From positions 3,906,001 through 3,970,000 of the forward strand of contig NZ_CP045393.1 of NCBI RefSeq assembly GCF_009363655.1: DNA of 64,000 bases. The letters are read 5' to 3'. Positions 45,524 to 61,447 of this stretch are shown here, piece by piece. Both the position numbers and the translations under genes were made by a program. This stretch comes from Roseovarius sp. THAF27. GTDB lineage: Bacteria; Pseudomonadota; Alphaproteobacteria; Rhodobacterales; Rhodobacteraceae. Below the pieces are notes generated by a model, which did not search any database, was not told the DNA's origin, and saw only the letters and a program-made list of their open reading frames with translations. Within the stretch, counting starts at the first letter, position 1. Each line of letters starts with the position of its first letter.

Positions 45524-47308
45524 CTATCTGTCGTCATAGCCTTTCTTCTGCGCCTGGTAGAGCCGCGCGTAGAGCCTATTCTCGGCCAGCAGGTCCTCGT
45601 GCCGGCCCTGCTCCACCAGCTGCCCGGATTCCAGCACGAATATCCGGTCCGCATCCGCGATCGAGCTCAGCCGGTGCGCCACCACGATCGTCGTCTTGCC
45701 TTTCGTCAGCCGCTCCAGCGCCGACTTGATCCGCTCCTCCGTCGCCTGGTCCAGCGCCGAGGTCGCCTCGTCCAGAAGCAGGATCGGCGCATCGCGCAGG
45801 AACGCCCGCGCAATTGCGATCCGCTGCTTCTGCCCGCCCGACAGCTGCGCCCCCTTGGGCCCCACCGGCACCTCGCCGCGCGCCCGGATCAGGTCGGCGA
45901 TCTCGGCATCCTCGGCCGCCTGCCAGACCTGCGCCTCGGTCGCCTTCGGATTGACGTAACGGATGTTGTCCCAGATCGACGCGTTGAAAATGACGATATC
46001 CTGCGCCACCACCGAAAACGCCCCGCGCAGTGCCGCCACCTGCAGGTCCCGGATGGGCGTCCCGCCAAAGGTGATGTCACCTCCCTGCACGTCGTAAAGG
46101 CGCGACAGCAGCGACAGGATCGTCGTCTTGCCCGACCCGGTCGAGCCGACGATGGCCGACACCTTCCCCCCCTCGAACGCCATGTTCAGGCCCTGGAACA
46201 GCGGCTGATCCGGCGAATAGGAGAACGTCACGTCCTTCAGAACGATATCCCCGCTGGTGTCGAACGCCGTCTTCGCCCCCTCGGCATCCCTGATGCTTGG
46301 CTCCTGGTCGTAAAGGCTTCGCACCCGGTCGAGCAGCACCAGGCTCGATTGCAGCCCGCCGAAGAACTGTGCCAGCAGGCGCGCTGGGTCGAAGACCATG
46401 ACCATGCCCAGCAGGAAGGTGATGATCCCCGCGCCATCCACGTCGTATGCGGGCGACAGCACCATGTAGCCCCCGCCCCCGATCACCAGCACATAGACAA
46501 AGGCCGAGCTGAGGTCGATCGACGGCAGCACCAGCGCCTGGGTCACCTGCACCCGGGTCGTCAGCTGCCGGATCGCATCGGTCCCGCGCATCAGCCGGTC
46601 TTTCTCGACCTCCTCCTGCCGGGCGATCTTGACGGTGCGCATCCCGTTCACCGTCTCCTCGATCCCGTTCATGTAGCCGCCCAGTGCCTCCTCGGCCTCG
46701 CCCTGGGCCTGTTTCACCCGGTCCGAGACGAAATTCATCACCACGATTATGAACGGCAGCACCACGATGGCCGACACGAACAGGATCGGGTTCTTCCAGA
46801 TAAGGTACCCCGACACCACGACCACCGTCACCGCGTCGCGCAGCGCGCCCGCCACGCCCAGGCCCACGAAGGCGCCGATCTGCTGCGTCTGCGTCACTAG
46901 CTTCTGGATGATCTCGCCCGACTTGGTGCGCTCGAAATAGGCAAGGTCCAGCGACATCAGGTGCCCCACCAGGTCCCGCCGCATCTCGAAGATCGCCTGG
47001 TTCGACACCTTGACCGTGATCATCGGCGCCAGGAAGGACACCACGCCGCGTACGGCGAACAGCACGAACACGACGATACAGACCTCGATCAGTTCACGCA
47101 TCGCGCCCGCCTCGAAGATCACCCGCAACCCGTCCTCGGTCAACGCCAGGAACTGCTGGTAAACCAACCCCTGCACCAGGATCAGCAGCAGAACCAGCAA
47201 CAGCTTGCCCTGGTGTTTGCGCAGGTAGTTCCGCCAGAACCACCGCATGTTCCGCTTGTCCGCGTCGCTATACAGCGGCTGACGTGTCTTGGTTGGGGTA
47301 TCGCTCAT
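45524..47308 (-). CDS. ABC-type exporter, fused membrane and ATPase domains (MsbA-like)
   Basis: The 594-residue half-transporter has six helices (residues 33-300) and an ATPase domain with Walker A GSTGSGKTT, Q-loop VVAQDIVIF, signature LSGGQKQRIAIARA, Walker B ILLLDEATS and H-loop VAHRLSS. Such homodimers export lipids, peptides or drugs, and the substrate cannot be read from sequence. ATG 47308 gives the natural N-terminus; an ATG nine codons upstream adds only polar residues. It is downstream-convergent with moeA and unrelated to its neighbours. Confidence 0.9.
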   Translation of the reverse strand: MSDTPTKTRQPLYSDADKRNMRWFWRNYLRKHQGKLLLVLLLILVQGLVYQQFLALTEDGLRVIFEAGAMRELIEVCIVVFVLFAVRGVVSFLAPMITVKVSNQAIFEMRRDLVGHLMSLDLAYFERTKSGEIIQKLVTQTQQIGAFVGLGVAGALRDAVTVVVVSGYLIWKNPILFVSAIVVLPFIIVVMNFVSDRVKQAQGEAEEALGGYMNGIEETVNGMRTVKIARQEEVEKDRLMRGTDAIRQLTTRVQVTQALVLPSIDLSSAFVYVLVIGGGGYMVLSPAYDVDGAGIITFLLGMVMVFDPARLLAQFFGGLQSSLVLLDRVRSLYDQEPSIRDAEGAKTAFDTSGDIVLKDVTFSYSPDQPLFQGLNMAFEGGKVSAIVGSTGSGKTTILSLLSRLYDVQGGDITFGGTPIRDLQVAALRGAFSVVAQDIVIFNASIWDNIRYVNPKATEAQVWQAAEDAEIADLIRARGEVPVGPKGAQLSGGQKQRIAIARAFLRDAPILLLDEATSALDQATEERIKSALERLTKGKTTIVVAHRLSSIADADRIFVLESGQLVEQGRHEDLLAENRLYARLYQAQKKGYDDR

Positions 47309-47733
47309 GTCAGGTGCAGTCCGATCGCTTCTCAACTGACGCCTATAGAGGGTTCAATCCCAAAGGTCAGCCCCCCGCGCGGACGCCCCTTACCAGACGC
47401 GTTGATGATCGCGACCATGTCGCGCCCCCAGCCGGTTAACAGCCGCGAAGCGGCCCGGCCATCGTCAGCCCCTCCCTTGGGCTGACGCTCGCCTCCGTCT
47501 TGAACGGCAACTCCGTCCCCATAGCCGACGTCCGGGATGACGAAACCGCCCCCGCATATTTCCGCGCGATCATTGGCCTGTTTGGAACCCTATTGCGTTC
47601 AGGGTCATACGTGGTCCTCGAACATATCCCGTACGGGGCCTGCCCGCGCGGACGCTTCCCTTTTCCTCTGGCCAAAAATATCCTGGGGGAGGCCCGGGCC
47701 TGCCCGGGACGGGGGCAAAGCCCCCCAACGCCT
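47309..47733. other. 425-base gene-free region with two repeat types
   Basis: It holds an internally deleted copy of the large palindromic repeat (47429-47500) and a second, different gene-end element (47655-47735). Between them (47520-47640) lies unique sequence without a credible gene, although short frames are open on both strands. It separates the ABC exporter from the N-heterocycle cluster. Confidence 0.65.
47429..47500 (-). repeat. Large palindromic dispersed repeat, copy E with internal deletion
   Basis: Read on the minus strand it has the left flank (GCCGTTCAAGACGGAGG), a shortened left arm CGTCAGCCC, the right arm GGGGCTGACG, and the right flank up to TTAACCGGCTGGG that copy B has near 8.8 kb. 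The roughly 100-base core is missing, so only a short hairpin with a six-base loop is left. Confidence 0.7.
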
Positions 47734-47735
47734 TC
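47655..47735 (-). repeat. Gene-end element with AATATCC-type core, copy 1
   Basis: Behind the AA_synth stop on the minus strand there is a GGGGGCTTTGCCCCC hairpin, a second GC-rich palindrome, then CCCCCAGGATATTTTTGGCC followed by AGAGGAAA. The same order (GC hairpin, ATATTT, GGCCAGA, purines) recurs at 60286-60355. It looks like a family-specific 3'-end element. Confidence 0.6.
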
Positions 47736-48315
47736 AGCGCAGCCCGTCCTCGCCCTTTACCTCGTCCACCGTCAGGCCGCCCATCCGGTCGTGGATACGC
47801 CCGCCCCGGCTCATCGCCAGCACGAAAAGCAGCTCATCGGCACGGGGTCCGTCGGGCAGGCCCACTTCCATTCCGTCGAAATGGCTGCGCACATAGGCCG
47901 CGTTGATATGCCCCAGCGGCACGTCGATCCGGCTCCCCGGCCCGCCCTGCTTCATCGACGAGGGCACGATCGCCTTCGCCTCGCCCAGCCGCGCGCGCAT
48001 CGCGTATCCCCCAGGCACATGCCACAGCGCGGTATGCTCCAGCTCCCCGGCCTCGCCCGCCATGGCGGCCTTGCCATAGCCGTCGATGCCCTCAGGGCCG
48101 CCCATCGCCTCGATCAGACGGTCGGTCATCATCAGGCCCAGCGGCTTCAAGTCGTCCATCGCCGATTGCAGATCCTCGGCATAGCTGCCCGCAAAGGGGT
48201 TTCTCACCAGAGCCGCCATGGCGGCGCGGCGGCGCGGCGTCCCGGCGGCAGGCCCGCCGTCGTGACGGATCTCCTCGACGAAAAGCGTGGTCTTGCGCAG
48301 GGTGAAGTCAGGCAT
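47734..48315 (-). CDS. Amino acid synthesis (AA_synth, former DUF1185) family protein
   Basis: The 193-residue protein matches PF06684: LRKTTLFVEEIRHDGG at the start, RAAMAALVRNPFAGSYAEDL, and the end ADELLFVLAMSRGGRIHDRMGG. A structure from this family was reported as a variant of the chorismate mutase fold, with a suggested but unproven role in amino acid metabolism. It overlaps the UPF0280 gene by eight bases and is the last gene of the block. In this context an isomerase or hydrolase step on a ring-derived product is possible. Confidence 0.8.
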   Translation of the reverse strand: MPDFTLRKTTLFVEEIRHDGGPAAGTPRRRAAMAALVRNPFAGSYAEDLQSAMDDLKPLGLMMTDRLIEAMGGPEGIDGYGKAAMAGEAGELEHTALWHVPGGYAMRARLGEAKAIVPSSMKQGGPGSRIDVPLGHINAAYVRSHFDGMEVGLPDGPRADELLFVLAMSRGGRIHDRMGGLTVDEVKGEDGLR

Positions 48316-49150
48316 GTTCTGGCTCTCTTTCTTCGATCATCAAACTCTCGCCGACGGTCACGCACTGCCCACGCAGGCTCAGGCAGGCCGCATGGATCAC
48401 GCCCCGCGTCACCAGCCCTGCCGCATGGGCGCGCCCGGCCTCCAGCGCCTCGGCAACCTCCGCCGGGGTCAGCGCCCCGACCGCCCGCGTCACCGCGCGC
48501 GCGCCAAGGTCACTGTCAGGCGACACCTCGCAGGCCGGAACACGGACAATCGTCGGATGCCCCGGCAGGTCCACGGCATTGGCGATCAGCGTGGCGGCGG
48601 CGTCGGCTGTCGCGGCGTCCCGCGCCAGCACCGTCACCGCATCGGCAATGCCTAGCGAATGGCTCCGCCCGCCCGCGCCCGAAGTCGCCACCCCGCGTAC
48701 AGGGTCACCGGACCGCAGGGTCACATGCCCCGGCACCGGGCTTGCAATCGCCAACCGCATCGCCTCTCCCGGACCGACGTGAAAGGCGACGTCGCCGCCG
48801 TTGTTCACATAGGCCTTGCGCACGCCCGACCCGCCCCGAATGGCCGCCAGGATCGTCTCCGCGCCCGCGCCCGCCACCGCCGCCATCGGCGTAACGAACT
48901 CCGGCGCAAAGGGCCGCACCGCCTCGACCATGCGCCGCGCCGTCTCTCCCTCGACTTGCCCGCCCAAGGGGCTGCGCAAACGCGGCAGCTCCGCCACCAA
49001 CTCGTCCAGCAACGTCTCGAACCGCGCCACCGCTCTCTGAAACGCCGCGTCCCGCCCCGCGCCTTCGATGCCCACGATCATGTCGATTGGTCCGTGATGC
49101 AGGTGCAGCCGTTGCCCATCCGGCAACCAGTTCGCCTGCGCGCCCGGCAT
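48308..49150 (-). CDS. UPF0280 family protein (ApbE-like)
   Basis: The 280-residue protein has the UPF0280 pattern, with RLHLHHGPIDMIVGIEG, PMAAVAGAGAETIL, AYVNNGGDVAFHV and GVATSGAGGRSHSLGIADAVTVLA. The family is related to ApbE, which transfers FMN to proteins, so a flavinylation or flavin-binding role is imaginable. It overlaps the reductase-like gene (ATG 49150 shares a base with its TGA; GTG 49153 is an alternative). The pairing with AA_synth and the reductase recurs, to my knowledge, in other proteobacteria. Confidence 0.8.
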   Translation of the reverse strand: MPGAQANWLPDGQRLHLHHGPIDMIVGIEGAGRDAAFQRAVARFETLLDELVAELPRLRSPLGGQVEGETARRMVEAVRPFAPEFVTPMAAVAGAGAETILAAIRGGSGVRKAYVNNGGDVAFHVGPGEAMRLAIASPVPGHVTLRSGDPVRGVATSGAGGRSHSLGIADAVTVLARDAATADAAATLIANAVDLPGHPTIVRVPACEVSPDSDLGARAVTRAVGALTPAEVAEALEAGRAHAAGLVTRGVIHAACLSLRGQCVTVGESLMIEEREPEHA

Positions 49151-50589
49151 CACTCGCCCTCCACGACACGCACCGCGCTGCCGTACTCGCCGCCATGCTT
49201 CAGAATATCGCTCACCGTCCGCACGGACGCATCATGTCCGCCCAGCGCACGGTAATCCGCCCGGCTCAGGGTGAATTCCAGCGGCGCCACCAGCGCGGGC
49301 GTCGGCACATGCCCGAACGATCCTTCCGGCATCTTCAGCACGTCCACCATCAGCGTGATCCCGCCCCCGGGCCAGACGAAGGCCGGCGCCCCGCCACAGG
49401 TCACCCGCGTCTTCAGCGCCTGCACCGAGCGGGTCAGCTTCACCGGGTTCTGCGTCACGCCCGAGCGCAGCGACCCACCCGCCCCCGCCTGGAACATCAC
49501 CGTGCACAGCGCCGGCTCGCAATTCTCGGCAATCAGCGCCACCGACGGTTTCAACGCCTCCGGCAACTCCGCCTCGCGCGGTTGCAAGTCGTCATCCAGA
49601 ACATAGTACCCGTGATGCTCCCCCGTGGTGCTGACCATCAAAAGCGTCAGCCCCGGCCGCGCGCCTTTCTTTTCCAGCCATGGATTCAGGATCGCCAGCG
49701 GATCGTCCAGGTCGGTACCGCCCCAGCCCTGTCCCGGCTCGGCCACCCGGAAATACCGCCCCGGCGTCGAACGTCGCCCCTTGATGCGAATGCCGGTATC
49801 GAGCCAGCCAAGCACCTTGCCCGCCTGGTGCTCGCTGACCACTCCGGTGATATGGTCGTCCACCACCACCACCTCGTCCACCAGCCCGTGCCACTGGCTG
49901 GCGAACATGCCGATCGTGGCCGAGCCGCAGCCGACGCGCATCCGCTCCTCGCGCTGACCATTGACCACGGGCGCCTGCCCGGCCTCAACGACCACCGTCG
50001 CGCCGTCGTCGATCTCCAGTTCCACCGCCTCGCGGTTGCACAGCCGCATCAGCGCATCGCAGGTCGCGCGCCCCTCGGCCTTACCGCCGCCGGTCAGGTG
50101 ATCGACCCCGCCCAGCGACAGCATCTGCGAGCCATATTCGGAGGTGGTCACATGCCCCACCGCCTCGCCATTGCTGCGCACGGTCGCGGTCTCGTGCCCG
50201 AGGTGCCGGTCGGTGTCGATCTTCACCTTCACCCCGCAATAGGAATAGATCGCCTCGGTCACCACGGTGACGAAATCGGCCCCCTCGACCTTGCGGCTCA
50301 CGATAAAGGGCGCGGGCTTGTAATCGGGATAGGTCGTGCCCGCCCCCACGCCGCTGACGAATACCTCCTCGCCGCCCAGGATCTCGCCGTCCCACTCCGG
50401 CCCAAGGAACGGCTTCACCGCATCTCCCTTGGCAACCCTACGGTCTAGTATGGTCAAGGGATCACACCGCACGATGCGGCCACCCTCGTTGGCATAGCGA
50501 TCGCACGCCCCGATCTTGCCCGGCGCGATATAGCACATGACCGGGCAGGCATCGCAGCGGATCTTTTCCTCCTGCCCCCGCTCAGCCAT
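49150..50589 (-). CDS. 6-hydroxynicotinate reductase-like iron-sulfur protein
   Basis: The 479-residue protein begins with a cysteine cluster (Cys12, Cys15, Cys19, Cys29 in RCDACPVMC...GACDR) that suits an iron-sulfur centre. The body has GVGAGTTYPDYKPAPF, VTTSEYGSQML and MRVGCGSATIGMFASQWHG. I recognise it as the family named after 6-hydroxynicotinate reductase of nicotinate-fermenting clostridia. Here it lies in an aerobic-type organism next to a molybdenum hydroxylase, so it may reduce a hydroxylated N-heterocycle. Overlaps of four and eight bases link it to both neighbours. Confidence 0.75.
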   Translation of the reverse strand: MAERGQEEKIRCDACPVMCYIAPGKIGACDRYANEGGRIVRCDPLTILDRRVAKGDAVKPFLGPEWDGEILGGEEVFVSGVGAGTTYPDYKPAPFIVSRKVEGADFVTVVTEAIYSYCGVKVKIDTDRHLGHETATVRSNGEAVGHVTTSEYGSQMLSLGGVDHLTGGGKAEGRATCDALMRLCNREAVELEIDDGATVVVEAGQAPVVNGQREERMRVGCGSATIGMFASQWHGLVDEVVVVDDHITGVVSEHQAGKVLGWLDTGIRIKGRRSTPGRYFRVAEPGQGWGGTDLDDPLAILNPWLEKKGARPGLTLLMVSTTGEHHGYYVLDDDLQPREAELPEALKPSVALIAENCEPALCTVMFQAGAGGSLRSGVTQNPVKLTRSVQALKTRVTCGGAPAFVWPGGGITLMVDVLKMPEGSFGHVPTPALVAPLEFTLSRADYRALGGHDASVRTVSDILKHGGEYGSAVRVVEGE

Positions 50590-53272
50590 GCCCCGCCTCC
50601 CGGATCGCCGCCAATACCCGGTGCGGCAGCGCGGGCAGCTCAGTCACCAACGCCCCCGTCGCATCCCGGATCGCGTTCAATATCGCGGGGGCGGTGGGGA
50701 TCAGCACATGCTCGCCCAGCCCCTTGGCGCCCATCGGCCCTTCCGGGTCCGGCACCTCCAGGAAAATCGTCTCGATCTCCGGCATGTCGCCCGTGGTGGG
50801 GATCAGGTAATCGTGCAGGTTCTCGGTGCGCCCCGGTATGAACTCCTCCATCAGCGCAAGTCCCAGCCCCTGCGCGATGCCGCCCTCGACCTGCCCCTCA
50901 GCCAGTTGCGGATTGATCACCCGGCCCAGATCGTGCGCCGCGGTGATCCTGTGCACCTTCACCGTCCCCAGGCGGATGTCCACCGACAGCTCCACCAGCT
51001 GCGCGCCGTAGCCATAGACGGCATAGGGCACCCCCTGTCCATCCTCGTCCAGCGGCTGGGTCGGCGGATCGTAACTTTCCTCGGCCCACAGCACATAGCC
51101 ATGCGCCTGCTCGGAAAGGTCTGTCAGATCAATCTGTTGCTCGCGTTCACCATCGCTGACGCGCAGCACGGTACCGTCCAGCCGCAACACCGCCTCCGGC
51201 CCCATATTCGTCTGCTTCAGGATCAGCGCCCGCAAAGCCCGCCCGGCGCGCAAGGCCGCACTGCCGGTCACGTAGGTCTGGCGCGACCCGGACGTCTTCC
51301 CGCAGTCCGGCGTCAGCGCGGTATCGGCCCCGATGATCTCGAACTGCGCCAAGGGCAGCCCCAGCGCATCCGCCGCGATCTGCGGGATCACCGTGTTCGA
51401 CCCCTGCCCGATATCCACCGCGCCCTGGTGCAGGCACAGCCGTCCGTCGCGCGTCAGCCCGATCCGAATGGTCGACGGATTGGCGATGGCCGTATTCCCG
51501 CATCCGTACCAGCAGGAGGCGATACCAACGCCATGCCGAATGTGTCCGCCCCTGGCATTGGCCGCATCGGCCCGGCGCAAGGCGTCCTGCCACGGCATCT
51601 CCAGCGCCTCCAGGCACGCCCCGATCCCCACGCCGTAAAGCGTCTGACCGCACACCGTCGCCTGCCCATCGCGCAACGCGTTCAACCTGCGGAAGGCCAG
51701 CCGGTCTATGCCCAGCTGGTTCGCCAGATCGTCGAACAGCGTCTCCTGCAGGATCGCCGCCTGCGGCACGCCGAACCCCCGGAACGCGCCGGAGATCGGC
51801 TGATAGCTGTAATTCGCCCGCGCCTCGGCGTGGTAGTTGAGGATGAAATACGGCCCAGAGGCATGGACCGGCACGCGCCCGGCCACGGTCGGCCCCCAGC
51901 TTGCATACGCTCCCGTATTGAAATCGCCGTCGAACTCCATCGCCACGATACGCCCCTCGGCGTCGGCACCGATGGTTCCACGCATGTCCGACGGGTGCCG
52001 CTTCGTGGTCGAGGCCATGCTTTCGGCCCGGCTATAGACCATTCGCGCCGGCTGTCCGGTCTTCAGCGCGACCAGCCCGATCAGCGGCTGCAGCGAGACG
52101 TCCAGCTTGGACCCGAACCCGCCGCCAGTCGCCGCCGGAATGATCCGCACCGCCTCGGGCGGCAGTCCCAGCACGGCGGCGGTATCGTCCCGGTCCATGA
52201 TCGGCGCCTGCGTGCAGGCCCGGATCACCAGCGTCTCGCCGTCCATCCAGGCGACGCCGGCCTCGGGCTCGATATAGGCGTGCTCGACATATCCCGTCCG
52301 CATGGTGCCGTGGACCATGACGACCGCGTCGGCCATCGCCTCTCGGGCCATGCCGCGCCGGACCTTGCCCGCGATCAACAGGTTGTCGGGATGCGCGTCG
52401 TGCACCGGGCGGTCCGCCGGATCCTCGCGCCAGGCGACCGGAAATCCCGACAGGTCCAAGGCCTCGATGATCGCAGGCTTGCCCGCGACCAGCGCCACCG
52501 CCTCGCCCGCCAGCCGCGCCCGGTCCTCGGCCAATGCCGGCTGGTCGCGGAACGCAGGGATCACGCCGAAACGGTTGGTCCCGGCGATATCCCTTGCGGT
52601 GAAGACGCGCACGCCCTTGTCCGCAGCCCATCCGTCGATATCGCCAAAGGCAAAGGACGCCGGCGCATAAGGGGCCCGCACCGCGCGCACCAGCAGCGCA
52701 TCCTGCGGCACCACATCCGCGCCATAGGCTTCGGTGCCGTCGACTTTCGCCGCCCCGTCGAGCCGCGCCACGGCCGCGCCCACCGCCCGGCCCGGCTGCG
52801 GCATCTCCGCCACCGTGCCGGGGGCCGCATCCATCACAGCGTCGATGATCTTGGTGTAGCCCGTGCACCGGCACAGGACACCGCCCAGCGCCTCCTCGGC
52901 TCCGGCCCGTGTCGGGGCGCGCGCGCCGCGCAGATAGGCCTCCGCCGTCATCACCATCCCGGGCGTGCAGATCCCGCATTGCGCCGCACCGTGCCGCAGG
53001 AACGCCTGCTGCAACGGGGTGTTCTTCTGCCCTTCGATCGTCTCGATGCTGCGGCCTTCGGCCTGGCCCAGCGGCGTCAGACAGGCGCAAACGGGCGCCC
53101 CGTCCAGCAGAACCGTGCACGCTCCGCAATCCCCGGCGTCACAGCCCACCTTGGTGCCGCGCAAGCCCAGACCGTCGCGCAGCACCTCGGACAAACGCCG
53201 TGCCGGGTCCGCCGGCAGAACCTGGCGCCGGCCGTTCACGGTCAGGGTACAGGTGTCCATGGGCCGGTTCAT
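50582..53272 (-). CDS. Molybdenum hydroxylase, fused [2Fe-2S] and Mo-binding subunits (xanthine dehydrogenase family)
   Basis: The 896-residue protein begins with two [2Fe-2S] domains: CDAGDCGACTVLLDG (plant-type, about residues 40-60) and CGICTPGM with LCRCTGYTKI (helical, about 95-145). The Mo-binding part follows, with GGGFGSK, GAFRGFGVPQ and the C-terminal GAKGLGEH that contains the catalytic Glu. These enzymes hydroxylate aromatic N-heterocycles next to the ring nitrogen. ATG 53272 overlaps the FAD-subunit stop (ATGA); ATG 53260 is possible. The substrate is unknown; hypoxanthine-type, nicotinate-like and other rings all fit. Confidence 0.88.
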   Translation of the reverse strand: MNRPMDTCTLTVNGRRQVLPADPARRLSEVLRDGLGLRGTKVGCDAGDCGACTVLLDGAPVCACLTPLGQAEGRSIETIEGQKNTPLQQAFLRHGAAQCGICTPGMVMTAEAYLRGARAPTRAGAEEALGGVLCRCTGYTKIIDAVMDAAPGTVAEMPQPGRAVGAAVARLDGAAKVDGTEAYGADVVPQDALLVRAVRAPYAPASFAFGDIDGWAADKGVRVFTARDIAGTNRFGVIPAFRDQPALAEDRARLAGEAVALVAGKPAIIEALDLSGFPVAWREDPADRPVHDAHPDNLLIAGKVRRGMAREAMADAVVMVHGTMRTGYVEHAYIEPEAGVAWMDGETLVIRACTQAPIMDRDDTAAVLGLPPEAVRIIPAATGGGFGSKLDVSLQPLIGLVALKTGQPARMVYSRAESMASTTKRHPSDMRGTIGADAEGRIVAMEFDGDFNTGAYASWGPTVAGRVPVHASGPYFILNYHAEARANYSYQPISGAFRGFGVPQAAILQETLFDDLANQLGIDRLAFRRLNALRDGQATVCGQTLYGVGIGACLEALEMPWQDALRRADAANARGGHIRHGVGIASCWYGCGNTAIANPSTIRIGLTRDGRLCLHQGAVDIGQGSNTVIPQIAADALGLPLAQFEIIGADTALTPDCGKTSGSRQTYVTGSAALRAGRALRALILKQTNMGPEAVLRLDGTVLRVSDGEREQQIDLTDLSEQAHGYVLWAEESYDPPTQPLDEDGQGVPYAVYGYGAQLVELSVDIRLGTVKVHRITAAHDLGRVINPQLAEGQVEGGIAQGLGLALMEEFIPGRTENLHDYLIPTTGDMPEIETIFLEVPDPEGPMGAKGLGEHVLIPTAPAILNAIRDATGALVTELPALPHRVLAAIREAGHG

Positions 53273-54132
53273 CCCGCGCGCCCCGCACACGCGACATCCG
53301 CCACAGCCCGGCGCAGCAATTCCGTTGCGGCGTGGCTCCGATACGCGGCATCGGCGCGGATATCGTCGAGCGGCGACAATGCGGCCGCCACGGCCTCTGC
53401 GTCGACACGATCCGTCAGCGTATGGTCGGCCTTGCGCCCGATCAGCGCCGCCTCGACCGCAGACAATCGCAGGGCCACCGCGCTGCACGATCCGACCGCC
53501 ATCGCGACCCGCGACACCGTGCTGTCCGTCACCTCCAGCCGCACCGCCACCATGGCGATCGAGATCACCAGGTATCTCCGCGCGCCCAGCTTCAGAAAGC
53601 GCGAGCGTCCCGCCAATGCCGGATGCGGAAGGTGTATCGCCGTGACGACCTCGCCTTGCTTCAGTGCCGTCCTGCGCGGCCCGGTGATGAAGCGTTCCAA
53701 CGGCATCCGCCGCAGTCCCGTGGCCGAGGCCAACTCGACCTCCGCCTCCAGCGCCAGCAGGCACGGCACCCCGTCCGCCGCGGGCGAGGCGTTGCAGATG
53801 TTCCCGCCCAGTGTCCCGGCGTTCTGGATCTGCGCCGCGCCGACCTCGCGCGCCGCCTGTTTCAGCATCTCGCAGGCGGGCGGCAAGTCGGCCTTCACGA
53901 TATCGCTCCAGGTGGTTGCCGCCCCGATCCGCACACCATCGTCACCCCGCGCGATCCCGCGCAGGCCCGCCACGCGGCTGATGTCCACCACCGGCCCCTG
54001 CAACGCCCGTGCCGCCGTCGCCGGAAACAGATCGGTGCATCCCGCCGCCACGCGCCCGCCACTCTGCGCCAGCAATGCCAGCGCATGGTCAAGGGTCTCG
54101 GGCCTCATGTAACCGCTCACCGCGCTCTCCAT
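53269..54132 (-). CDS. Molybdenum hydroxylase FAD-binding subunit
   Basis: The 287-residue protein has the CoxM-type FAD motifs VAAGCTDLFP (first pyrophosphate loop) and NAGTLGGNICNASPAADG (second). It passes electrons from the iron-sulfur centres of the partner protein to the final acceptor. ATG 54132 was kept, though ATG 54108 (MRPETLDHAL) fits the usual N-terminus as well. It is the first gene of the catabolic half, 94 bases behind livF. Confidence 0.88.
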   Translation of the reverse strand: MESAVSGYMRPETLDHALALLAQSGGRVAAGCTDLFPATAARALQGPVVDISRVAGLRGIARGDDGVRIGAATTWSDIVKADLPPACEMLKQAAREVGAAQIQNAGTLGGNICNASPAADGVPCLLALEAEVELASATGLRRMPLERFITGPRRTALKQGEVVTAIHLPHPALAGRSRFLKLGARRYLVISIAMVAVRLEVTDSTVSRVAMAVGSCSAVALRLSAVEAALIGRKADHTLTDRVDAEAVAAALSPLDDIRADAAYRSHAATELLRRAVADVACAGRAG

Positions 54133-54226
54133 GCCGGGGTGCGCTCATCGTGCGCCGCCGCATTTCGCCCTGTCAACTCAAAGCGTTTTGCCGTCACCCT
54201 TGCGGATCAACGAGAGGCGAAACGCG

Positions 54227-54925
54227 TCAAACCCCCACGTAACGATCCACGATCGAGTGATCCTGCCGCAGCGCTTCCGCACTCAGCACCTCGCCGTTGC
54301 GCCCGTTCTCGATGAATGCCACCCGGTCGGCCACCGAGAGTACCGCATCGACCCGCTGTTCCACCAGCAGGATCGCCACGCCCTGCGCGCGCATCTTGAC
54401 GATGACTTGCCGGATCGCCTCGATCATCGAGGGTTGCAGCCCCTCGGTCGGCTCATCGAGCAGCAGCGCCTTGGGCTGGATGCACAACGCCCGCGCCGTG
54501 GCCAGCATCTGCTGCTCTCCGCCCGACAGGGTCTGCGCCGGCTGGTCCATCCGCTCCCGCAACCGGGGAAAGAGCTCCAGCACCTCGTCCAGAACGTCCT
54601 TGCCCGCGCCACGCACCTGCAACCCGATCTCCAGGTTCTGCGCCACGCTGAGGCCCGCGAACAGCCGCCGCCCCTGCGGGATATACCCGATCCCGGCCCG
54701 CGGCACCTCGTGCGGGGGCAGGCTGCCGATATCCTGCCCGTCCAGCGTGATCCGCCCCGACATCAGCGGCAACAGCCCCATGATCGTCTGCATCGTGGTG
54801 GTCTTGCCGGCGCCATTTCGGCCCAGCAGGCACAGGATCTCCCCCGCCTCAACCCGCAAGGACAGATCCCGCAACACCTGCGCCGCGCCATACCCCGAAT
54901 TGACCGCTTGCAGTTCCAGCATCAT
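54227..54925 (-). CDS. livF: Branched-chain-amino-acid-type ABC transporter ATPase (LivF)
   Basis: The 232-residue ATPase has Walker A GRNGAGKTTT, IPQGRRLFAGLSVAQNL, signature TLSGGEQQMLATARAL, Walker B LLLDEPTEGL and the H-loop-like LVEQRVD of LivF proteins. It overlaps livG by four bases. Together with LivG, LivM, LivH and the binding protein it forms a HAAT-type importer. Its next neighbour downstream is the hydroxylase, so transport and catabolism are probably co-expressed. Confidence 0.92.
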   Translation of the reverse strand: MMLELQAVNSGYGAAQVLRDLSLRVEAGEILCLLGRNGAGKTTTMQTIMGLLPLMSGRITLDGQDIGSLPPHEVPRAGIGYIPQGRRLFAGLSVAQNLEIGLQVRGAGKDVLDEVLELFPRLRERMDQPAQTLSGGEQQMLATARALCIQPKALLLDEPTEGLQPSMIEAIRQVIVKMRAQGVAILLVEQRVDAVLSVADRVAFIENGRNGEVLSAEALRQDHSIVDRYVGV

Positions 54926-55626
54926 CCGGTCCCCAGATAGGCCGCCTGCACGTCGGCATTCTCGTGGATCTGCTCCGGCGTCCCCTCGGCCAGCATCTCT
55001 CCGAAGTTCAGCACGCTCACCGTGTCGGCGGTCTCCATCACCACCTTCATGTTGTGCTCGATCAGCAGGATCGTCGTCTCGCCCGCCAGGTCCCGGATCA
55101 ACGCCTTGAACGCGTCGATCTCGCCCTCCGAAAGGCCCTGCGTCGGCTCGTCCAGGATCAGTAAGCGCGGCGCCTGCACCAGCCCCATCGCGATCTCCAG
55201 CAGGCGCTGGTGCCCGTAGCTGAGGTTCCCCGCCTCCTCACCGGCCTGCCCTTCCAGTCCCACACGCCCCAACGCCTCCGCCACGGCGGGCTCCACCGCG
55301 CGACCCTGCAACCGCCGCCGCGCGGCCAGCGCCACGTTCTCCTGCACCGGCAGACGCGGAAAGATCGAGGTGATCTGGAAAGTGTACGCCATCCCCTTCA
55401 GGATCCGCTTGTGCGCAGGCAGACTGGTGATGTCCTCGCCGTCGAACGTCACGGTCCCGGATGTCGGCGCGATCCGCCCGCAGATCATGCCAACCAGCGT
55501 CGTCTTGCCTGCCCCGTTCGGACCAATGAGCGCCCTCACCTCGCCTTGCGGCAAGTCGAAATCCACGTTCGTGACCGCCTGCAACCCGTCAAACGACTTG
55601 GACAGTCCCCGCACCTTCAGCAGCAT
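54922..55626 (-). CDS. livG: Branched-chain-amino-acid-type ABC transporter ATPase (LivG)
   Basis: The 234-residue ATPase has Walker A GPNGAGKTTL, MAYTFQITSIFPRLPVQENV, NLSYGHQRLLEIAMGL (the LivG variant of the signature, where SYGHQ replaces SGGQ), Walker B LLILDEPTQGL and IEHNMKVVMETAD. ATG 55626 overlaps the livM stop (ATGA). A much longer open frame upstream is the shadow of livM. Confidence 0.92.
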   Translation of the reverse strand: MLLKVRGLSKSFDGLQAVTNVDFDLPQGEVRALIGPNGAGKTTLVGMICGRIAPTSGTVTFDGEDITSLPAHKRILKGMAYTFQITSIFPRLPVQENVALAARRRLQGRAVEPAVAEALGRVGLEGQAGEEAGNLSYGHQRLLEIAMGLVQAPRLLILDEPTQGLSEGEIDAFKALIRDLAGETTILLIEHNMKVVMETADTVSVLNFGEMLAEGTPEQIHENADVQAAYLGTG

Positions 55627-56570
55627 CACGGCAGTCCCTTCCACAGCCGCCGCCGCACTTCGCCGGTCAGGCCCTGCGGCGCGAAGAGCGTCAGCGCCAC
55701 CAGCGCCACGCCCGCGATCAGCATATAGGCCGAGGTGACGCCGGAACTGAGGTCGATGAGGTAGAACATGAAGAGCGTGCCCACGAACGGCCCCAGCACG
55801 GTGCCCGCGCCGCCCAAGAGCACCCACAAAAGCGGAAAGATCGAGTACTGCACCGACCCGAAGGTGGCTCCGGCATAGCCGAACAGAAGGCCGTAAAAGG
55901 CCCCCGCCGCCGCCGAGATCGTGCCCGACGCCACCATCGCCCCCAGCTTGTGCGCATAGGTGTCGTAGCCCAGCATCCGCACCCGCTCCTCGTTTTCGCG
56001 GATGGCGATCAGAGTCCGCCCGAACCGGCTCTGCACCAGCCACAACGACAGTAGGAAGCAGACCGAGAACAGCCCCCAGGCCGCGAAATACCGCGCCGTC
56101 GGGTCGATCAGGTCGATCCCCCACAGCACCCGCTGCGCCTGCTGGATCACAAACCCCTCGTCGCCCCGCGTGTATTCCCCGAAATAGAGGATCGTCAGGT
56201 AGCCCGCCTGCGCGAACATCAGCGTCACGATCATGAACGCCACGCCAGAGGTCCTGAGCGCCAACAGCGCCAGCCCCCCGGCCACCAGAGCCCCCGCCAC
56301 GATCCCCGCGATCAACGCGGGCGCGGGCGTGAACCCCGCGTGCTGGATGGTCAGCCCCATCCCGTACATGCCCGCCGCAAAAAACAACGCGTGCCCAAGG
56401 CTCAACAGCCCCGTGTAGCCGAAAAGGATGTTGTACCCCACGGCGTAAGACGCCAGCACCATGATCCGCGCAATGTTCCCCTGGTGATACGCCGGCAGCA
56501 CGAACTGCAACGCGAACAGCACCACCAGTAGGCCCAGGTGCAGCCCCAGAACGCGCCCGCCCATGCTCAT
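55626..56570 (-). CDS. livM: Branched-chain-amino-acid-type ABC transporter permease (LivM)
   Basis: The 314-residue permease has about eight helices and the LivM signature YTGLLSLGHALFFAAGMYGM, then RENEERVRMLGYDTYAHKL (cytoplasmic coupling loop) and LLGGAGTVLGPFVG. It overlaps both livH and livG by ATGA-type junctions. Confidence 0.92.
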   Translation of the reverse strand: MSMGGRVLGLHLGLLVVLFALQFVLPAYHQGNIARIMVLASYAVGYNILFGYTGLLSLGHALFFAAGMYGMGLTIQHAGFTPAPALIAGIVAGALVAGGLALLALRTSGVAFMIVTLMFAQAGYLTILYFGEYTRGDEGFVIQQAQRVLWGIDLIDPTARYFAAWGLFSVCFLLSLWLVQSRFGRTLIAIRENEERVRMLGYDTYAHKLGAMVASGTISAAAGAFYGLLFGYAGATFGSVQYSIFPLLWVLLGGAGTVLGPFVGTLFMFYLIDLSSGVTSAYMLIAGVALVALTLFAPQGLTGEVRRRLWKGLP

Positions 56571-57493
56571 GCCGTTCTGGTCCCGAACAGGCCCTGCGGC
56601 CGGAACACCAGCACCAGCCCCACCAGCAGCGTCGCCAAAATCTTCGCCAGCGTCGGCGAAAAGAAGACCGAGATGATCCCGTCACTCAACCCGATGAACA
56701 GCGCCGCCAGCACGGTTCCCGGCAGGCTCCCCAGCCCCCCGATGATGACCACGATGAAGGCCAGCAGCAACGGCTCCACCCCCATCAGGTAATGCGCCTG
56801 CTGGATCGGCACGATAAGCACCGCCCCCAGCGCCGCCAGCCCCGCGCCGATCCCGAAGACCAGCGCATAGACCCGCTCCACCGGGATGCCAAAGGCCAGC
56901 GCCATGTCCCGATCCGCCTGCGTCGCCCGCATCAACAACCCGATCCTCGTCCGCGCCATCATCGCCCAGACGCCGCACAACACCGCGCCCGCGGCAAAGA
57001 TTACGAACAGTTTGTACGAGGTGATGCTCCAGCCCCAGGGCTGCGCCATGCCGAACAGCGTCTCGAACCACTCGTACCACGGCAGCTCGACCCGGCCACT
57101 GAAGGGTGCCTCCACGGGGCGCGCCTCGGGGCCATAGGTCATCAGGGTCAGTTGCTGGATTACATAGAGCAAGCCAATCGTCGCCACGATCGTCCGCTCC
57201 GGATCATATTCAATATGCTTCAGTATGGTCACATCCGCCGCCGCCGCCAGCGCCCCCACGACCAGCGGCGCGATCACCAACGCGGCAACGAACCCCAGCG
57301 CCGGATGCCCCCCCACCATCTGCGCGACGTACCAGGCAATCACCGCACCCAGCATGTAGAACTCGCCATGCGCGATATTCACCACCCGCATCACGCCGAA
57401 CACAAGGCTCAGGCCCACGGCGGTCAGCGCCAGCACCGCAGCCGTCACCGCGCCTTCCAGCGTGGCGAGGATAAGATGAGGTCCGAATTCCAT
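56567..57493 (-). CDS. livH: Branched-chain-amino-acid-type ABC transporter permease (LivH)
   Basis: The 308-residue permease has about eight helices and the LivH signature MRVVNIAHGEFYMLGAVIAW. It also has RATQADRDMALAFGIPVERVY as coupling loop and IIGGLGSLPGTVLAALFIG. It lies 35 bases behind the binding-protein gene. Confidence 0.92.
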   Translation of the reverse strand: MEFGPHLILATLEGAVTAAVLALTAVGLSLVFGVMRVVNIAHGEFYMLGAVIAWYVAQMVGGHPALGFVAALVIAPLVVGALAAAADVTILKHIEYDPERTIVATIGLLYVIQQLTLMTYGPEARPVEAPFSGRVELPWYEWFETLFGMAQPWGWSITSYKLFVIFAAGAVLCGVWAMMARTRIGLLMRATQADRDMALAFGIPVERVYALVFGIGAGLAALGAVLIVPIQQAHYLMGVEPLLLAFIVVIIGGLGSLPGTVLAALFIGLSDGIISVFFSPTLAKILATLLVGLVLVFRPQGLFGTRTA

Positions 57494-57528
57494 CAGGTCA
57501 GGTCACACGCCCCCGCCCGCCGCACGCA

Positions 57529-58815
57529 TCACAGCGGCTGCGTGGTGTAATCCACCTCGTCGGGATACATCGTGTCGTCGATCGACGTCGTGTGCACCCG
57601 CACCAGTCGCCCGTTCTCGACCCGGCTGATATGCTGATGCCCGAACACCTGGTGCGTCTTGCCATTGAACCGCTTGGCCCCCTGCGGATGCGCCTGGCTT
57701 TCGGGCATATCGCCCATCGCCTCGACCGCCTCGATCAGCTTTGCGCGGTCCAGCGGCCCGGCATAGCCCGACGCTTCCATTCCTGCCTTGATGATGTGCA
57801 GCGTCTCCCAGCAGCCGAACATATGCGCATAGGTCGACACGTCGCTCGGGTCGCTGACCGACGCGCCGGTCTCGTCCACGCCCACGGCCTCACGATAGAA
57901 CGCCTCGTGCTCGCTCTGGTCCTCCTGCGCGTAGCGCGGCATCCCTTCCCAGAAATACGTCCCTTCCAAAAACTCCAGGCCCGGGCTGGAAATATCCACC
58001 GCCTCCAGGCTGTCGATAAAGCCGAAGATTTCCGGCCCCTGGTCGCCGAAAAACTCGCCCAATTCCTTCACGAAGGTCAGAACGGCAGGGCCGACCATCA
58101 CGTGATACAGCACCTCGGTATCGCGTGGGATCTGCGGGAAATACTTGGTAAAGCTCGTCTCGCTGGGCGGAATCGCGATCTGCTCCAAGACCTCGCCGCC
58201 CTGTTCCTCGATCGCGGCGGTAAAGAAATCCCGGTGATCGTGACCGAAGGCGAAATCGGGGAAGATCATCGTGACCTTTTTCCCGAGGTTCTCCGACACG
58301 TAAGGCGCCATCGCCTGCACCTGGCTCTTCACGTCCGTGATGCCCGGTTGCAGGGTATAGCGGTTCAGCATCCCGCTCGCCACGTGATGCCCCTCGGAGA
58401 CCACGAAATAGGGCAGCTTCAACTCCCCTGCCCGCGGCGCAGACCCGATCACCACGTGGGAAAACAGCGTGCCGAAACCGACGTCACAGCCATGCTGGTT
58501 GGCGAATTTCTCCACCACCTCGGCACCGCGCTTGGGATCCGTGCCGTCATCCTCGGCGATGATCTCGATCTTCCGTCCGTTGATGCCGCCACCCTCGTTG
58601 ATCAACTTCACCGCCGCCTCGGTGGTGCGCCCGTACCAGCGGCCATAGGCGGCCCCGATGCCGGTGCTGTGCTGCTGAAACCCGATCTTGATCGGCTCCG
58701 AGCTCTGCGCCTGCGCATACCGCGCCCAAAGCGGCAGGCTCGCCGCGCCCGCCGCTGCTCCGGCCAGTGTTTTCAACGCGCCCCGGCGCGACGTGCCCTT
58801 GATCAGCTTGGTCAT
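57529..58815 (-). CDS. ABC transporter substrate-binding protein (type I periplasmic fold), Tat-type signal
   Basis: The 428-residue protein has a twin-arginine signal (TSRRGALKTLAGAAAGAASLPL) ending near ARYAQAQ, then EPIKIGFQQHSTGIGAAYGRW and the LivJ/urea-binding-protein-like NEGGGINGRKIEIIAEDDGTDPKRGAEV. It is first in the transporter operon. Tat-dependent LivK-type proteins are frequent in alphaproteobacteria. Substrates of this group range from branched-chain amino acids to amides and aromatic acids; its linkage to the hydroxylase suggests the ring substrate of that enzyme. Confidence 0.88.
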   Translation of the reverse strand: MTKLIKGTSRRGALKTLAGAAAGAASLPLWARYAQAQSSEPIKIGFQQHSTGIGAAYGRWYGRTTEAAVKLINEGGGINGRKIEIIAEDDGTDPKRGAEVVEKFANQHGCDVGFGTLFSHVVIGSAPRAGELKLPYFVVSEGHHVASGMLNRYTLQPGITDVKSQVQAMAPYVSENLGKKVTMIFPDFAFGHDHRDFFTAAIEEQGGEVLEQIAIPPSETSFTKYFPQIPRDTEVLYHVMVGPAVLTFVKELGEFFGDQGPEIFGFIDSLEAVDISSPGLEFLEGTYFWEGMPRYAQEDQSEHEAFYREAVGVDETGASVSDPSDVSTYAHMFGCWETLHIIKAGMEASGYAGPLDRAKLIEAVEAMGDMPESQAHPQGAKRFNGKTHQVFGHQHISRVENGRLVRVHTTSIDDTMYPDEVDYTTQPL

Positions 58816-58902
58816 CGCGAACTCTCCCCGTTCTTTGAAATGACTTTGGCACGATCCTGCGAAGCCCGCCCCGGTTTGTCCAGTGTTTTGACCGGACTGC
58901 CC

Positions 58903-60282
58903 TCAACCGCGCGGCGAGGCCAGCAGCCACAGCCCGAAGAACGTGTAGGCCACCATGAACACCGCCAGCGGCGCCTGCCCCAGCACGGCGCGCCGCCGGT
59001 CGGGCCTGTCCCGCATGGCCAGCGAGTGCGCCATCAGGATCGCGACGACATGCCCCGCCACCACGGCCCCGGCCTGGCTCAGCCAGATCCGCCGCACCGT
59101 GTCTTGGGTGTTGAAGAAGCCCGTGGTCACATAGAACCCGTCGAGGCCCAGCAAGTGGGCCCCGTTCGACAACGGATCATCCAGCATCAGCACCACGTAT
59201 TGCCCTTCGACCAGGAAGGCCGGCAGGTAATGCGCCACGTGATAGCCCAGCGCGATCGGCAGGATCGACGGAGCGAACAGGCATACCGACGCCCGCAGGC
59301 TCCGCCCGGTCCCGGCAATGCGCTCGCCCAGCCACAGGCAGGCGGCGAACACCGCCAACAGACCGAAATTCGCCACCACCAATCCAATGAGATTCGGCAC
59401 CACCACCGCCGACCGCCCCGGAAACTCCAGAGGATTGACCCCGATCACCCCCAGCCACCAGAAAGTCTCGTGCAGCCCGTCAAAGCTGCCCGTCCCCAGC
59501 AGGAACACCATCAGCACCGCCAGCGCCAGCGGCGGCGCCCGCCGCACCACGCCCTGCCAGCCCCACAGGCCAACCGCCAGCCGCCCGCGCGCCTTGGCAA
59601 ACAGCCCCATGCGCCCATAGGCCCGCATCATGACCGTCACCATCTCGCCCCGCAGCAGGAACGCCGGCCCGAACAGCAGCACCCCGAACAGTACCGCGTA
59701 CCAGTATAACCCCACGACACTGGCCAACCGCGCCGGATCCGCCGGCGCCGGGTCGCACAACAGGAACGCCGCGAACGCCAGGAACAGCACAACCGCCGGC
59801 CAATACCCCCAGCCGCGCGGATAGCGCATCAACGCCCGCATCCCCGTCCACCGCGCCAACACCGCCACCACCCCGGTCCACGGGTTCGTCCAGCGCCAGT
59901 GATTGCCGATCAACCCTTGCAGGCTCACCAGCACCACCCACCACACCGTCCAGGTCAACAGCGGCATCGGGTTCTCCATCGGCGTGCGCGGCCCGGCAAA
60001 GCCCTGCCAGACGCCGAATGCCAGGATCCCCGTCGCCAGCAGGCTGGTCCCATGCCGCAATGCCCAACGTGGCCGCCGCACCAGCGGCACCGGCGAAAAC
60101 ACCGCCTCGCCCGCCCGCGCCGGCAACACCGCCAGCAACAGTACCGTCAGGACGACGCTCGCCACCCCAGCCGAAATGTAGACATCCGTCGGCAACAGAA
60201 GAACGAAACTCTGCTCCGACGCATGTGCCCGCGCCATCCCGCCCCAGAACAGGACAAGGCAGACCGGCAGAGCCCGCCTCAC
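58903..60282 (-). CDS. Multi-pass membrane protein of unknown function
   Basis: The 459-residue protein has a signal-like start (ends near GMARAHA) and about eleven to twelve further helices. Polar motifs include NHWRWTNPWTG, FGPAFLLRGEMVTVMMRAYGRMG, PNLIGLVVANFG and GYHVAHYLPAFLVEGQY with paired histidines inside a helix. I do not recognise the family with certainty; database entries that look similar in length and start are sometimes named fenitrothion hydrolase, but I could not confirm that. It is downstream of the arginine-deiminase-like gene on the same strand. Confidence 0.65.
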   Translation of the reverse strand: MRRALPVCLVLFWGGMARAHASEQSFVLLLPTDVYISAGVASVVLTVLLLAVLPARAGEAVFSPVPLVRRPRWALRHGTSLLATGILAFGVWQGFAGPRTPMENPMPLLTWTVWWVVLVSLQGLIGNHWRWTNPWTGVVAVLARWTGMRALMRYPRGWGYWPAVVLFLAFAAFLLCDPAPADPARLASVVGLYWYAVLFGVLLFGPAFLLRGEMVTVMMRAYGRMGLFAKARGRLAVGLWGWQGVVRRAPPLALAVLMVFLLGTGSFDGLHETFWWLGVIGVNPLEFPGRSAVVVPNLIGLVVANFGLLAVFAACLWLGERIAGTGRSLRASVCLFAPSILPIALGYHVAHYLPAFLVEGQYVVLMLDDPLSNGAHLLGLDGFYVTTGFFNTQDTVRRIWLSQAGAVVAGHVVAILMAHSLAMRDRPDRRRAVLGQAPLAVFMVAYTFFGLWLLASPRG

Positions 60283-60285
60283 GAT

Positions 60286-60355
60286 TTCTTCTTCTGGCCG
60301 GAAATATCCCGGGGAGAGCGTTGAAACGCAGTTTCAACGTGAGGGGCTGGCCCCT
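60286..60355 (-). repeat. Gene-end element with AATATCC-type core, copy 2
   Basis: Read on the minus strand from the arginine-deiminase-like gene: a GGGGCCAGCCCC hairpin, a 7-bp palindrome GTTGAAACTGCGTTTCAAC, then CTCCCCGGGATATTTCCGGCC followed by AGAAGAAG. The order matches the copy behind the AA_synth gene, including the purine-rich tail. It separates two minus-strand genes and probably ends the upstream transcript. Confidence 0.6.
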
Positions 60356-60394
60356 CTTCCCCACAATAAAGCGTGGCGCAGCCACTCATTCAGA

Positions 60395-61327
60395 TCACCC
60401 CGGGTCGCGAATCAGACTCTGGCACATGCAATGCACGCCGCCACCCCCTTGGGTGATCATGCTCAGGTCCGGGTCGTAAATGGTGAACCCCAGCGCGCGC
60501 AGCTTCTCCTTCAGCGTCTTCGACCCCTCGGGCAGCAGCACCCGGTCCTGCCCCAGCGCCACCACGTTGCAGCCCAGAGCGATGGTCTCCTGGAACGGCA
60601 CCTCGACGATCTCGATCTTCTTCGCGCGCAGCCAGTCGACGATCTCGGGATCGGTGCAATCGGTGCAGACCGCAGCCAGCTTCGGCGCCAGCATCACCAC
60701 CATCAGGTCGATATGCACATAGAACGGGTCGATATCGGCCAGCTTCACTTCCCAGCCCTCGGCCTCCATCCACGACGCGACCTGCCGCGCGCCCTCATGC
60801 ATCGACCGGCCTTCTTCGCCTTCCCAGCCGATCAGAACACACCCCGGCTCGATCACGTTGAAATCGCCCCCCTCGAAGGTGCCCGCAGTGACGAAATCGT
60901 AAATCGGAATGCCAAGGCCCTGGTAGGTCTCGATCGCCCGGAAATTCTCGCCCCGGCGCCAGTGTTGCGACATATGCGTGATGATTGCGCCATAGGGCGT
61001 CATCACCGAACTGTCCCGCGCATAAACCTGGTAGGGCAGTTCCGGATCCGGCACATGGGTCTGCACCTCGACGCCCGCGCTTTCATAGGCGCTCATCATC
61101 TCGGAATGCTGTTTTTTCGCAACGTTAGGGTCAAATTCCACCCCCCGCCGCAGCGTCTTCTTGCTCACCGACGAGGTCTTCAGCCAGCGGTAATTCTCGA
61201 TTGGCCCCAGCAGCACCGACCGCAACGTGCCATAGTCACTATCCGCTCCCCAGTCGTTCAGCCTGGGCGTGCCGCCGCCCTCGCGCCGTGCGCGCAGGGT
61301 AAAATTGTCAGCCGGTTGATCTTTCAT
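60395..61327 (-). CDS. Arginine deiminase/amidinotransferase-fold hydrolase (DDAH-like)
   Basis: The 310-residue protein has the guanidino-group enzyme pattern: VYARDSSVM (Asp105), GTFEGGDFNVI (Glu152), FYVHIDLMV (His205) and the C-terminal GGGGVHCMCQS with Cys300 as likely nucleophile. This is the catalytic set of dimethylarginine dimethylaminohydrolases and arginine deiminases, which hydrolyse or transfer amidino groups. The start follows AAAGGAGAGC; an ATG 15 codons upstream lies inside that leader. The substrate is not clear. It is about 1.5 kb from the hydroxylase cluster but is on its own transcript. Confidence 0.85.
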   Translation of the reverse strand: MKDQPADNFTLRARREGGGTPRLNDWGADSDYGTLRSVLLGPIENYRWLKTSSVSKKTLRRGVEFDPNVAKKQHSEMMSAYESAGVEVQTHVPDPELPYQVYARDSSVMTPYGAIITHMSQHWRRGENFRAIETYQGLGIPIYDFVTAGTFEGGDFNVIEPGCVLIGWEGEEGRSMHEGARQVASWMEAEGWEVKLADIDPFYVHIDLMVVMLAPKLAAVCTDCTDPEIVDWLRAKKIEIVEVPFQETIALGCNVVALGQDRVLLPEGSKTLKEKLRALGFTIYDPDLSMITQGGGGVHCMCQSLIRDPG

Positions 61328-61447
61328 GTCCGCTCTCCTTTGCGCGAGAGGCTGAGCCGATGCCACGTCCAAGTCAAGCGCGACCGCACTGGCACCGCCA
61401 TCGCGCCCGGTCCTTGCGCAAAACAGAGCCGTTGCGGGCGCGAAACC

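Follow-up and report, generated by a model that had tools for sequence, protein, structure and literature searches.

A nicotinate-degradation gene cluster has been published for Azorhizobium caulinodans ORS571, Bradyrhizobium japonicum USDA110, Rhodopseudomonas palustris HaA2 and strain SG-6C, and is described as holding the genes for the first three steps of the pathway (PMC3511419). Strain SG-6C grows on nicotinate and 6-hydroxynicotinate, with transient appearance of 6-hydroxynicotinate (PMC3511419), and the route through 1,4,5,6-tetrahydro-6-oxonicotinate (THON) in an aerobe is credited to Kitts et al. (as cited in PMC3511419). Fermentation of nicotinate by Eubacterium barkeri also proceeds through nicotinate dehydrogenase and then 6-hydroxynicotinate reductase (HNR). 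We analyzed a 64,000-nucleotide stretch of the 4.46 Mb genome of Roseovarius sp. THAF27 (contig NZ_CP045393.1, positions 3,906,001 to 3,970,000; hereafter the window), in which ten minus-strand genes combine a molybdenum (Mo) hydroxylase and an HNR-like protein with a transporter. The core of this block is a variant of the Azorhizobium and Bradyrhizobiaceae cluster type, and not a plain member of it, because an enamidase was searched for and not found.

The block and the gene adjoining it comprise the following features (window positions):
47734-48315, minus strand: AA_synth (PF06684, formerly DUF1185), the window-type copy AAS1 (PF06684, E 1.6e-66)
48308-49153, minus strand: UPF0280 protein (NF003322, 347 bits), a distant ApbE relative
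49150-50589, minus strand: 6-hydroxynicotinate reductase-like iron-sulfur protein, HNR (NCBI name of close homologs)
50582-53272, minus strand: Mo hydroxylase large subunit fused to its own 2Fe-2S domain (Pfam MoCoBD_1, MoCoBD_2, Fer2, Fer2_2)
53269-54132, minus strand: FAD-binding subunit of the Mo hydroxylase (PF00941, PF03450)
54227-54925, minus strand: LivF-type ABC ATPase (PF00005; UrtE-like below cut-off)
54922-55626, minus strand: LivG-type ABC ATPase (PF00005, PF12399; start ATG at 55626)
55626-56570, minus strand: LivM-type permease (PF02653)
56567-57493, minus strand: LivH-type permease (PF02653)
57529-58815, minus strand: periplasmic binding protein with a twin-arginine N-terminus (PF13458, E 4.2e-48)
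58903-60282, minus strand: 459-residue membrane protein (no Pfam match)

An earlier note, made from the letters of the window, had listed the ten genes from AA_synth to the binding protein as an undescribed uptake and modification system, with overlaps of 4-8 bases uniting the last five. All ten are confirmed where the note had placed them, and the overlaps from the FAD subunit to AA_synth measure 4, 8, 4 and 8 bases. The logic of a hydroxylase followed by a reductase, served by a transporter, is likewise supported. The system is not undescribed: the same type of core has been published as a nicotinate-degradation cluster (PMC3511419), the kind of prior assignment that the note itself had named as decisive against it. 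The published type includes the third-step gene (PMC3511419), whereas the enamidase that the note found missing from the block was not found anywhere in the Roseovarius genome either, and a HyuA/HyuB pair (HyuAB) is its predicted substitute. Compared with E. barkeri, the host is aerobic, the iron-sulfur and Mo subunits are fused and no enamidase was found. UPF0280 and AA_synth are the two proteins of unknown function counted in the block, and we infer that the two such proteins of the published cluster are the same pair.

Conservation was followed in four collections: (i) the 80 nearest named loci, which include many near-identical Mesorhizobium and of which 57 are at least 19 kb long; (ii) a class sample of 385 genomes drawn evenly from the Alphaproteobacteria, 68 of them with HNR; (iii) the 67 HNR loci of that sample besides the window; and (iv) 26 plasmids with HNR. 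Among the named loci, UPF0280 and the Mo subunit each occur in 76 of 80 (57/57 and 54/57 of those at least 19 kb long), the FAD subunit in 68 (54/57), AA_synth in 66 (50/57) and a binding protein ortholog in 47 (40/57). This gene arrangement is far beyond chance.

The naming and neighborhoods of these genes point to nicotinate. NCBI calls close HNR homologs 6-hydroxynicotinate reductase, and the window HNR shares 59-72% identity with annotated plasmid reductases, 97% with that of Roseovarius atlanticus and 95% with that of R. confluentis. An ortholog of the Mo subunit is present in 65 of the 68 HNR genomes. Two of the other three (G361 and G339) have NicA/NicB in place of the FAD/Mo enzyme, the NicB relative lying about 0.8 kb from HNR in G361 and on another contig in G339; in G041 a NicB relative was not found. 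NicB relatives at 40-43% identity in G066, G122 and G186 were not counted, and those genomes also carry the Mo subunit. NicA/NicB are annotated in the HNR neighborhood on three plasmids (Paracoccaceae La 6, Neorhizobium and a Comamonadaceae strain); the La 6 plasmid also has a distant Mo/FAD/iron-sulfur set further off. The PDB relatives of the Mo subunit include chains A, B and D of nicotinate dehydrogenase 3hrd; entries 3hrd and 2vun are the E. barkeri dehydrogenase and enamidase, respectively. MarR regulators labelled NicR adjoin two plasmid clusters. At 35% identity or above, 54 of the 80 named loci and 38 of the 67 sampled ones contain a MarR relative. Nicotinamidase (NF008623, 218.9 bits versus a cut-off of 174) is present at 29 of the 80 named loci, arranged in one of two ways. 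In one case, beside the Sulfitobacter pontiacus cluster, an AMP-binding protein, a 3-hydroxyacyl-CoA dehydrogenase, an enoyl-CoA hydratase and an acyl-CoA dehydrogenase fit the needs of a route ending in glutaryl-CoA.

Three observations weigh against this assignment. The best PDB match of the Mo subunit is an aldehyde oxidoreductase (1dgj), not nicotinate dehydrogenase; a MarR/NicR gene was not found in the window cluster; and of the 67 loci from the evenly drawn sample just one has a nicotinamidase beside HNR, so that its association is lineage-bound, the 29 of 80 including the many near-identical Mesorhizobium. Considering the published cluster, the NCBI naming and the replacement by NicA/NicB, we nevertheless hold that the block very probably acts on nicotinate, and that the ring compound the note had left unknown is likely this one. 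The note had also raised a modified amino acid as product; nothing was found in its favor, the name AA_synth resting on neighbors and fold.

The core could instead use the same chemistry on another pyridine or N-heterocycle, such as a methylated or otherwise substituted nicotinate or a pyridine dicarboxylate. At least two kinds of transporter surround it, the window type and one that is 35-47% identical, and the imported compound could therefore vary. A VanA-type Rieske oxygenase beside HNR in 12 of 74 clustered loci (L171 6879-7925 and relatives) further suggests a precursor that would undergo demethylation or hydroxylation ahead of this route. This alternative is quite improbable given that NicA/NicB stand in for the hydroxylase in some relatives and that the growth data given for the published cluster concern nicotinate and 6-hydroxynicotinate (PMC3511419). 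Homarine or trigonelline, suggested as substrates by the marine distribution, were dropped, as the trigonelline-like genes of this genome sit elsewhere, around a second AA_synth. With high likelihood, the block serves an aerobic roseobacter for the uptake of nicotinate and its catabolism by the reductive route through THON.

In the proposed pathway, the ABC transporter would import nicotinate, with a nicotinate-type ligand expected for the binding protein. The FAD/Mo enzyme, judging from its family, the published clusters and the replacement by NicAB, would convert nicotinate to 6-hydroxynicotinate, which HNR, by homology, would reduce to THON. HyuAB, associated with these genes by observation, would use ATP to open the THON lactam to an enamine, which by established chemistry should hydrolyze to 2-formylglutarate and ammonia. 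As has been reported for Azorhizobium, decarboxylation and oxidation would then lead to glutarate, glutaryl-CoA and acetyl-CoA. UPF0280 most likely matures the flavin or another cofactor of HNR, and AA_synth might conceivably assist with the reactive enamine or formyl acid.

On a Comamonadaceae plasmid, a gene beside HNR clearly encodes an enamidase (PDB 2vun, E 2.4e-111). With that protein as query, the best match in the Roseovarius genome spans 83 residues (E 1.1e-4), and we conclude that an enamidase was not found there. The genome does encode a HyuA (70% identity) at C1:3881898-3883922, with HyuB beside it, about 70 kb from the cluster. On plasmid clusters without enamidase, HyuA and HyuB adjoin HNR or the Mo genes. 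In the nicotinate cluster on the Sagittula stellata E-37 plasmid, which is typed as conjugative, HyuB-HyuA immediately follow the Mo/FAD genes.

Across the class sample, 30 genomes have a close homolog of enamidase (66-77% identity), 29 of these with HNR, and 41 have a member of the HyuA ortholog group (54-70% identity), 37 of these with HNR. The 68 HNR genomes divide into 29 with enamidase, 37 with HyuA, none with both and two with neither (G226 and G313, 70% and 86% complete); enamidase is absent from 39. The enamidase count excludes weaker homologs (36-42% identity), which six additional genomes and some of those counted possess, and the HyuA count excludes paralogs of 43-54% identity, including those in enamidase genomes G001, G065, G148, G194, G231, G287, G335 and G368. 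The fetched stretch around HNR includes HyuA for 21 of 36 HyuA genomes and enamidase for 16 of the 29 enamidase genomes; in no case does it include both. The same partition holds for the 26 HNR plasmids, with enamidase on 16 (65-100% identity), HyuA on 10 (62-100%), and none with both or neither; one of the 16, 12 of which are Sulfitobacter and not independent, also bears a 44% HyuA paralog. On the HNR tree (67 rows; the HNR of G028 was excluded, being in two frame pieces, the best of 239 residues), the enamidase/HyuA label changes eight times, with at least five changes forced by well-supported branches, and the window and two HyuA neighbors are nested in a group of enamidase genomes. We give this number of switches more weight than the Fisher value of the split (3e-17), because relatedness inflates such simple tests.

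Several facts weigh against the exchange of HyuAB for enamidase. The HyuAB of this genome lies outside the window; HyuA orthologs occur without HNR in four genomes, all from a single family, and on seven plasmids (59-61% identity); and one enamidase genome (G082) has no HNR. The HyuA cut-off was picked after viewing the match list and its margin is thin, the last counted match having an E-value of 4.1e-226 and the next, from an HNR-free genome, 4.4e-223 (52%); the weakest counted members, G104 and G367, both sit in an HNR locus. The missing enamidase is still best explained by HyuAB replacement.

HyuAB belongs among the ATP-dependent hydrolases of lactams. The best NCBIfam match of the HyuA ortholog from Fuscovulum is caprolactamase CapA (NF050156, E 9.6e-142), below that model's cut-off (473.6 versus 1000 bits), and the best PDB matches of HyuA are N-methylhydantoinase and '5-oxoprolinase', ahead of carboxylases. 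CapAB opens caprolactam (PMC8453981) and OplAB opens delta-valerolactam, which like THON is a six-membered lactam (PMC11033972). HyuAB is of the same HyuA/HyuB family as these enzymes for six- and seven-membered lactams (PMC11033972, PMC8453981), but keeps company with nicotinate genes, and THON is an enamide bearing a carboxylate. HyuAB is probably an ATP-dependent opener of THON. No link of hydantoinase-type genes to nicotinate ring opening, and none of UPF0280 to HNR, appears in the open-licence literature listed, subscription journals and preprints lying outside it.

We also considered whether AA_synth opens THON where enamidase is missing, with HyuAB acting elsewhere in the pathway. The window AA_synth scores well over the PF06684 cut-off (223.6 versus 27 bits) and has PDB relatives 3byq and 2qtp. 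AA_synth structures are described as chorismate-mutase-like hexamers with no known ligand, and the family name derives from adjacent transporter genes of the branched-chain amino-acid type and from the fold (PMC2954203). Its relatives TgnF and HcdD belong to operons for trigonelline and 7-hydroxycoumarin degradation (PMC7913881), a recurrence in aromatic or pyridine catabolism that would suit a ring opener, as would the second copy within a monooxygenase operon of this genome; the flavin monooxygenase and other genes of the TgnF/HcdD operons are absent from the window block. AA_synth is present in 59 of the 68 HNR genomes, and at 43 of the 67 sampled loci a match of at least 38% identity adjoins HNR. 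Its absence from nine HNR genomes, of which eight have a completeness of 90% or more, led us to reject it as a universal opener, and eight of the nine have a HyuA ortholog. AA_synth also accompanies enamidase, so that the two do not alternate, and the precedent of caprolactamase and OplAB favors HyuAB. We therefore consider ring opening by AA_synth improbable. A part in handling the reactive enamine or formyl acid, which would fit both nicotinate and trigonelline, is a speculative alternative for it.

The second AA_synth (G000:C1:981000-1000500, L083, about 8.1-14.0 kb) is 40% identical to the window copy, is followed by genes for an alpha/beta hydrolase, a flavin reductase, a luciferase-like monooxygenase and an aldehyde dehydrogenase, and has an oligopeptide-type ABC transporter upstream. 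By its gene set this looks like a trigonelline- or homarine-type operon, and it resembles the TgnF/HcdD operons. A second subfamily, AAS2, was examined as a strict enamidase partner, since its full-length group (at least 65% identity) occupies the same 30 genomes of the class sample as enamidase. This candidate was rejected: the group's E-value edge is thin (2.1e-77 versus 4.3e-77 for G195, 70% identical over residues 1-180), and close relatives occur in HyuA genomes G080 (68%) and G104 (61%) and on HyuAB plasmids (58-64%).

UPF0280 is an obligate partner of HNR. It occurs in the same 68 genomes of the class sample as HNR and in none of the other 317. In all 64 sampled loci that hold it, UPF0280 is adjacent to HNR on the same strand, with gaps between the matches of at most 214 bases, save one of 809 where HNR is split; in the remaining three (G087, G231 and G292) a contig ends at HNR and UPF0280 is on a different contig. 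The 27 plasmid records with UPF0280 are the 26 with HNR and that of Hydrogenophaga BPS33, in which an HNR remnant of 30 residues (57% identity, E 8e-9), beside an IS1071 transposase, precedes UPF0280. The BPS33 plasmid carries repeated IS1071-associated units in which UPF0280 stands with a MarR gene and a Rieske oxygenase (L197 7105-8037, 17914-18846); the remnant precedes UPF0280 at the second copy, and tblastn lists four UPF0280 places on the plasmid.

We consider UPF0280 likely to be a maturase of some kind for HNR. It exceeds the NF003322 cut-off (347 versus 290 bits) and resembles PDB 2o34 (E 2.2e-4; profile 1.1e-12). The ApbE model (PF02424) matches 18 of 36 UPF0280 members (best E 0.0017, below cut-off), the window protein falling short of the gathering score (16.6 versus 25.6 bits). 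This likeness, the failure to find ApbE in the genome and the covalent flavin that E. barkeri HNR reportedly carries, in work of Alhapel from 2006, lead us to propose UPF0280 as a flavin transferase specific for HNR, at somewhat less than even chances. HNR itself, which no NCBIfam model and no Pfam model matches over cut-off, does not contain the ApbE client motif D-x-x-[S/T]-G-A-[S/T] (PMC12052999); the closest candidate, GSAT at 222-225, deviates from the pattern. Thr225 was rejected as the flavinylation site: it is invariant in 31 near relatives, but 12 of the 68 rows that reach further out have Ala there.

UPF0280 might alternatively handle sulfur or iron-sulfur assembly for HNR, which has at least seven fully conserved cysteines (Cys 12, 15, 19, 29, 118 and 221 in 68/68 rows, Cys 357 in 67/67). 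The COG2122 proteins of Desulfovibrio and methanogens, which we take to be one family with UPF0280, are akin to the window protein in broad family (PDB 2o34) and in having one dedicated partner enzyme; the window protein differs in that its partner is HNR and its subfamily model NF003322. In Desulfovibrio, COG2122 and DUF39 are required jointly, with a fitness correlation of r = 0.98 across 170 experiments, and the pair has been proposed to act in homocysteine synthesis through a persulfide (PMC5764234). The distant relationship of UPF0280 to ApbE, the lack of a detected ApbE in this genome and the covalent flavin reported for the Eubacterium enzyme speak against a sulfur role, which we judge possible at roughly one chance in three. 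Genes for ferredoxin-NADP reductase neighbor HNR at 3 of the 67 sampled loci and at 13 of the 80 named ones. A 2-oxoacid:ferredoxin oxidoreductase-like pair does so in 6 of 74 clustered loci (L182 5710-8640 and relatives) and is a possible source of reduced ferredoxin for HNR.

The 459-residue membrane protein is probably an eleventh member of the unit. It recurs next to the binding protein in 28 of the 80 named loci (24 of the 57 at least 19 kb long) and in Fuscovulum is placed between AA_synth and the binding protein. Homologs number 2275 at E <=1e-5 among 8000 candidates; among the best 120, two are named 'Fenitrothion hydrolase' and most other named ones 'hypothetical protein'. For the Mo/iron-sulfur fusion, the ATG at 53272 was taken as start, as it fits the family, the mechanical open reading frame beginning further upstream. 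The twin arginine of the binding protein (SRRGAL) was read directly from the sequence, with no signal-peptide program. Rfam gave no match over gathering score, riboswitch or other, in 45000-62000, and the promoter (1 versus 1.6) and terminator (7 versus 5.8) scans did no better than in shuffles.

An oxidize-then-reduce nicotinate route is known from some soil bacteria; the replacement of enamidase by HyuAB and the pairing of HNR with UPF0280 appear to be new. Nicotinate is set free by every decaying cell, and about one in six of the sampled alphaproteobacterial genomes (68 of 385) bears this route. For more than half of the HNR genomes, the 39 of 68 without enamidase, we found no earlier assignment of the ring-opening gene, and the either/or pattern points to HyuAB as the candidate. 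The pairing with HNR offers UPF0280 a single partner for biochemistry and may inform on its relative in homocysteine synthesis. The joint proposal, that HyuAB is a THON lactamase repeatedly replacing enamidase, UPF0280 a dedicated cytoplasmic flavin transferase of HNR and AA_synth proteins general helpers for the unstable enamines and formyl acids that pyridine ring opening sets free, is tentative and rather unlikely to hold in every part. If true, it would add two new enzyme functions to one widespread pathway and reveal that protein flavinylation has a second lineage, at work in a genome that lacks ApbE.

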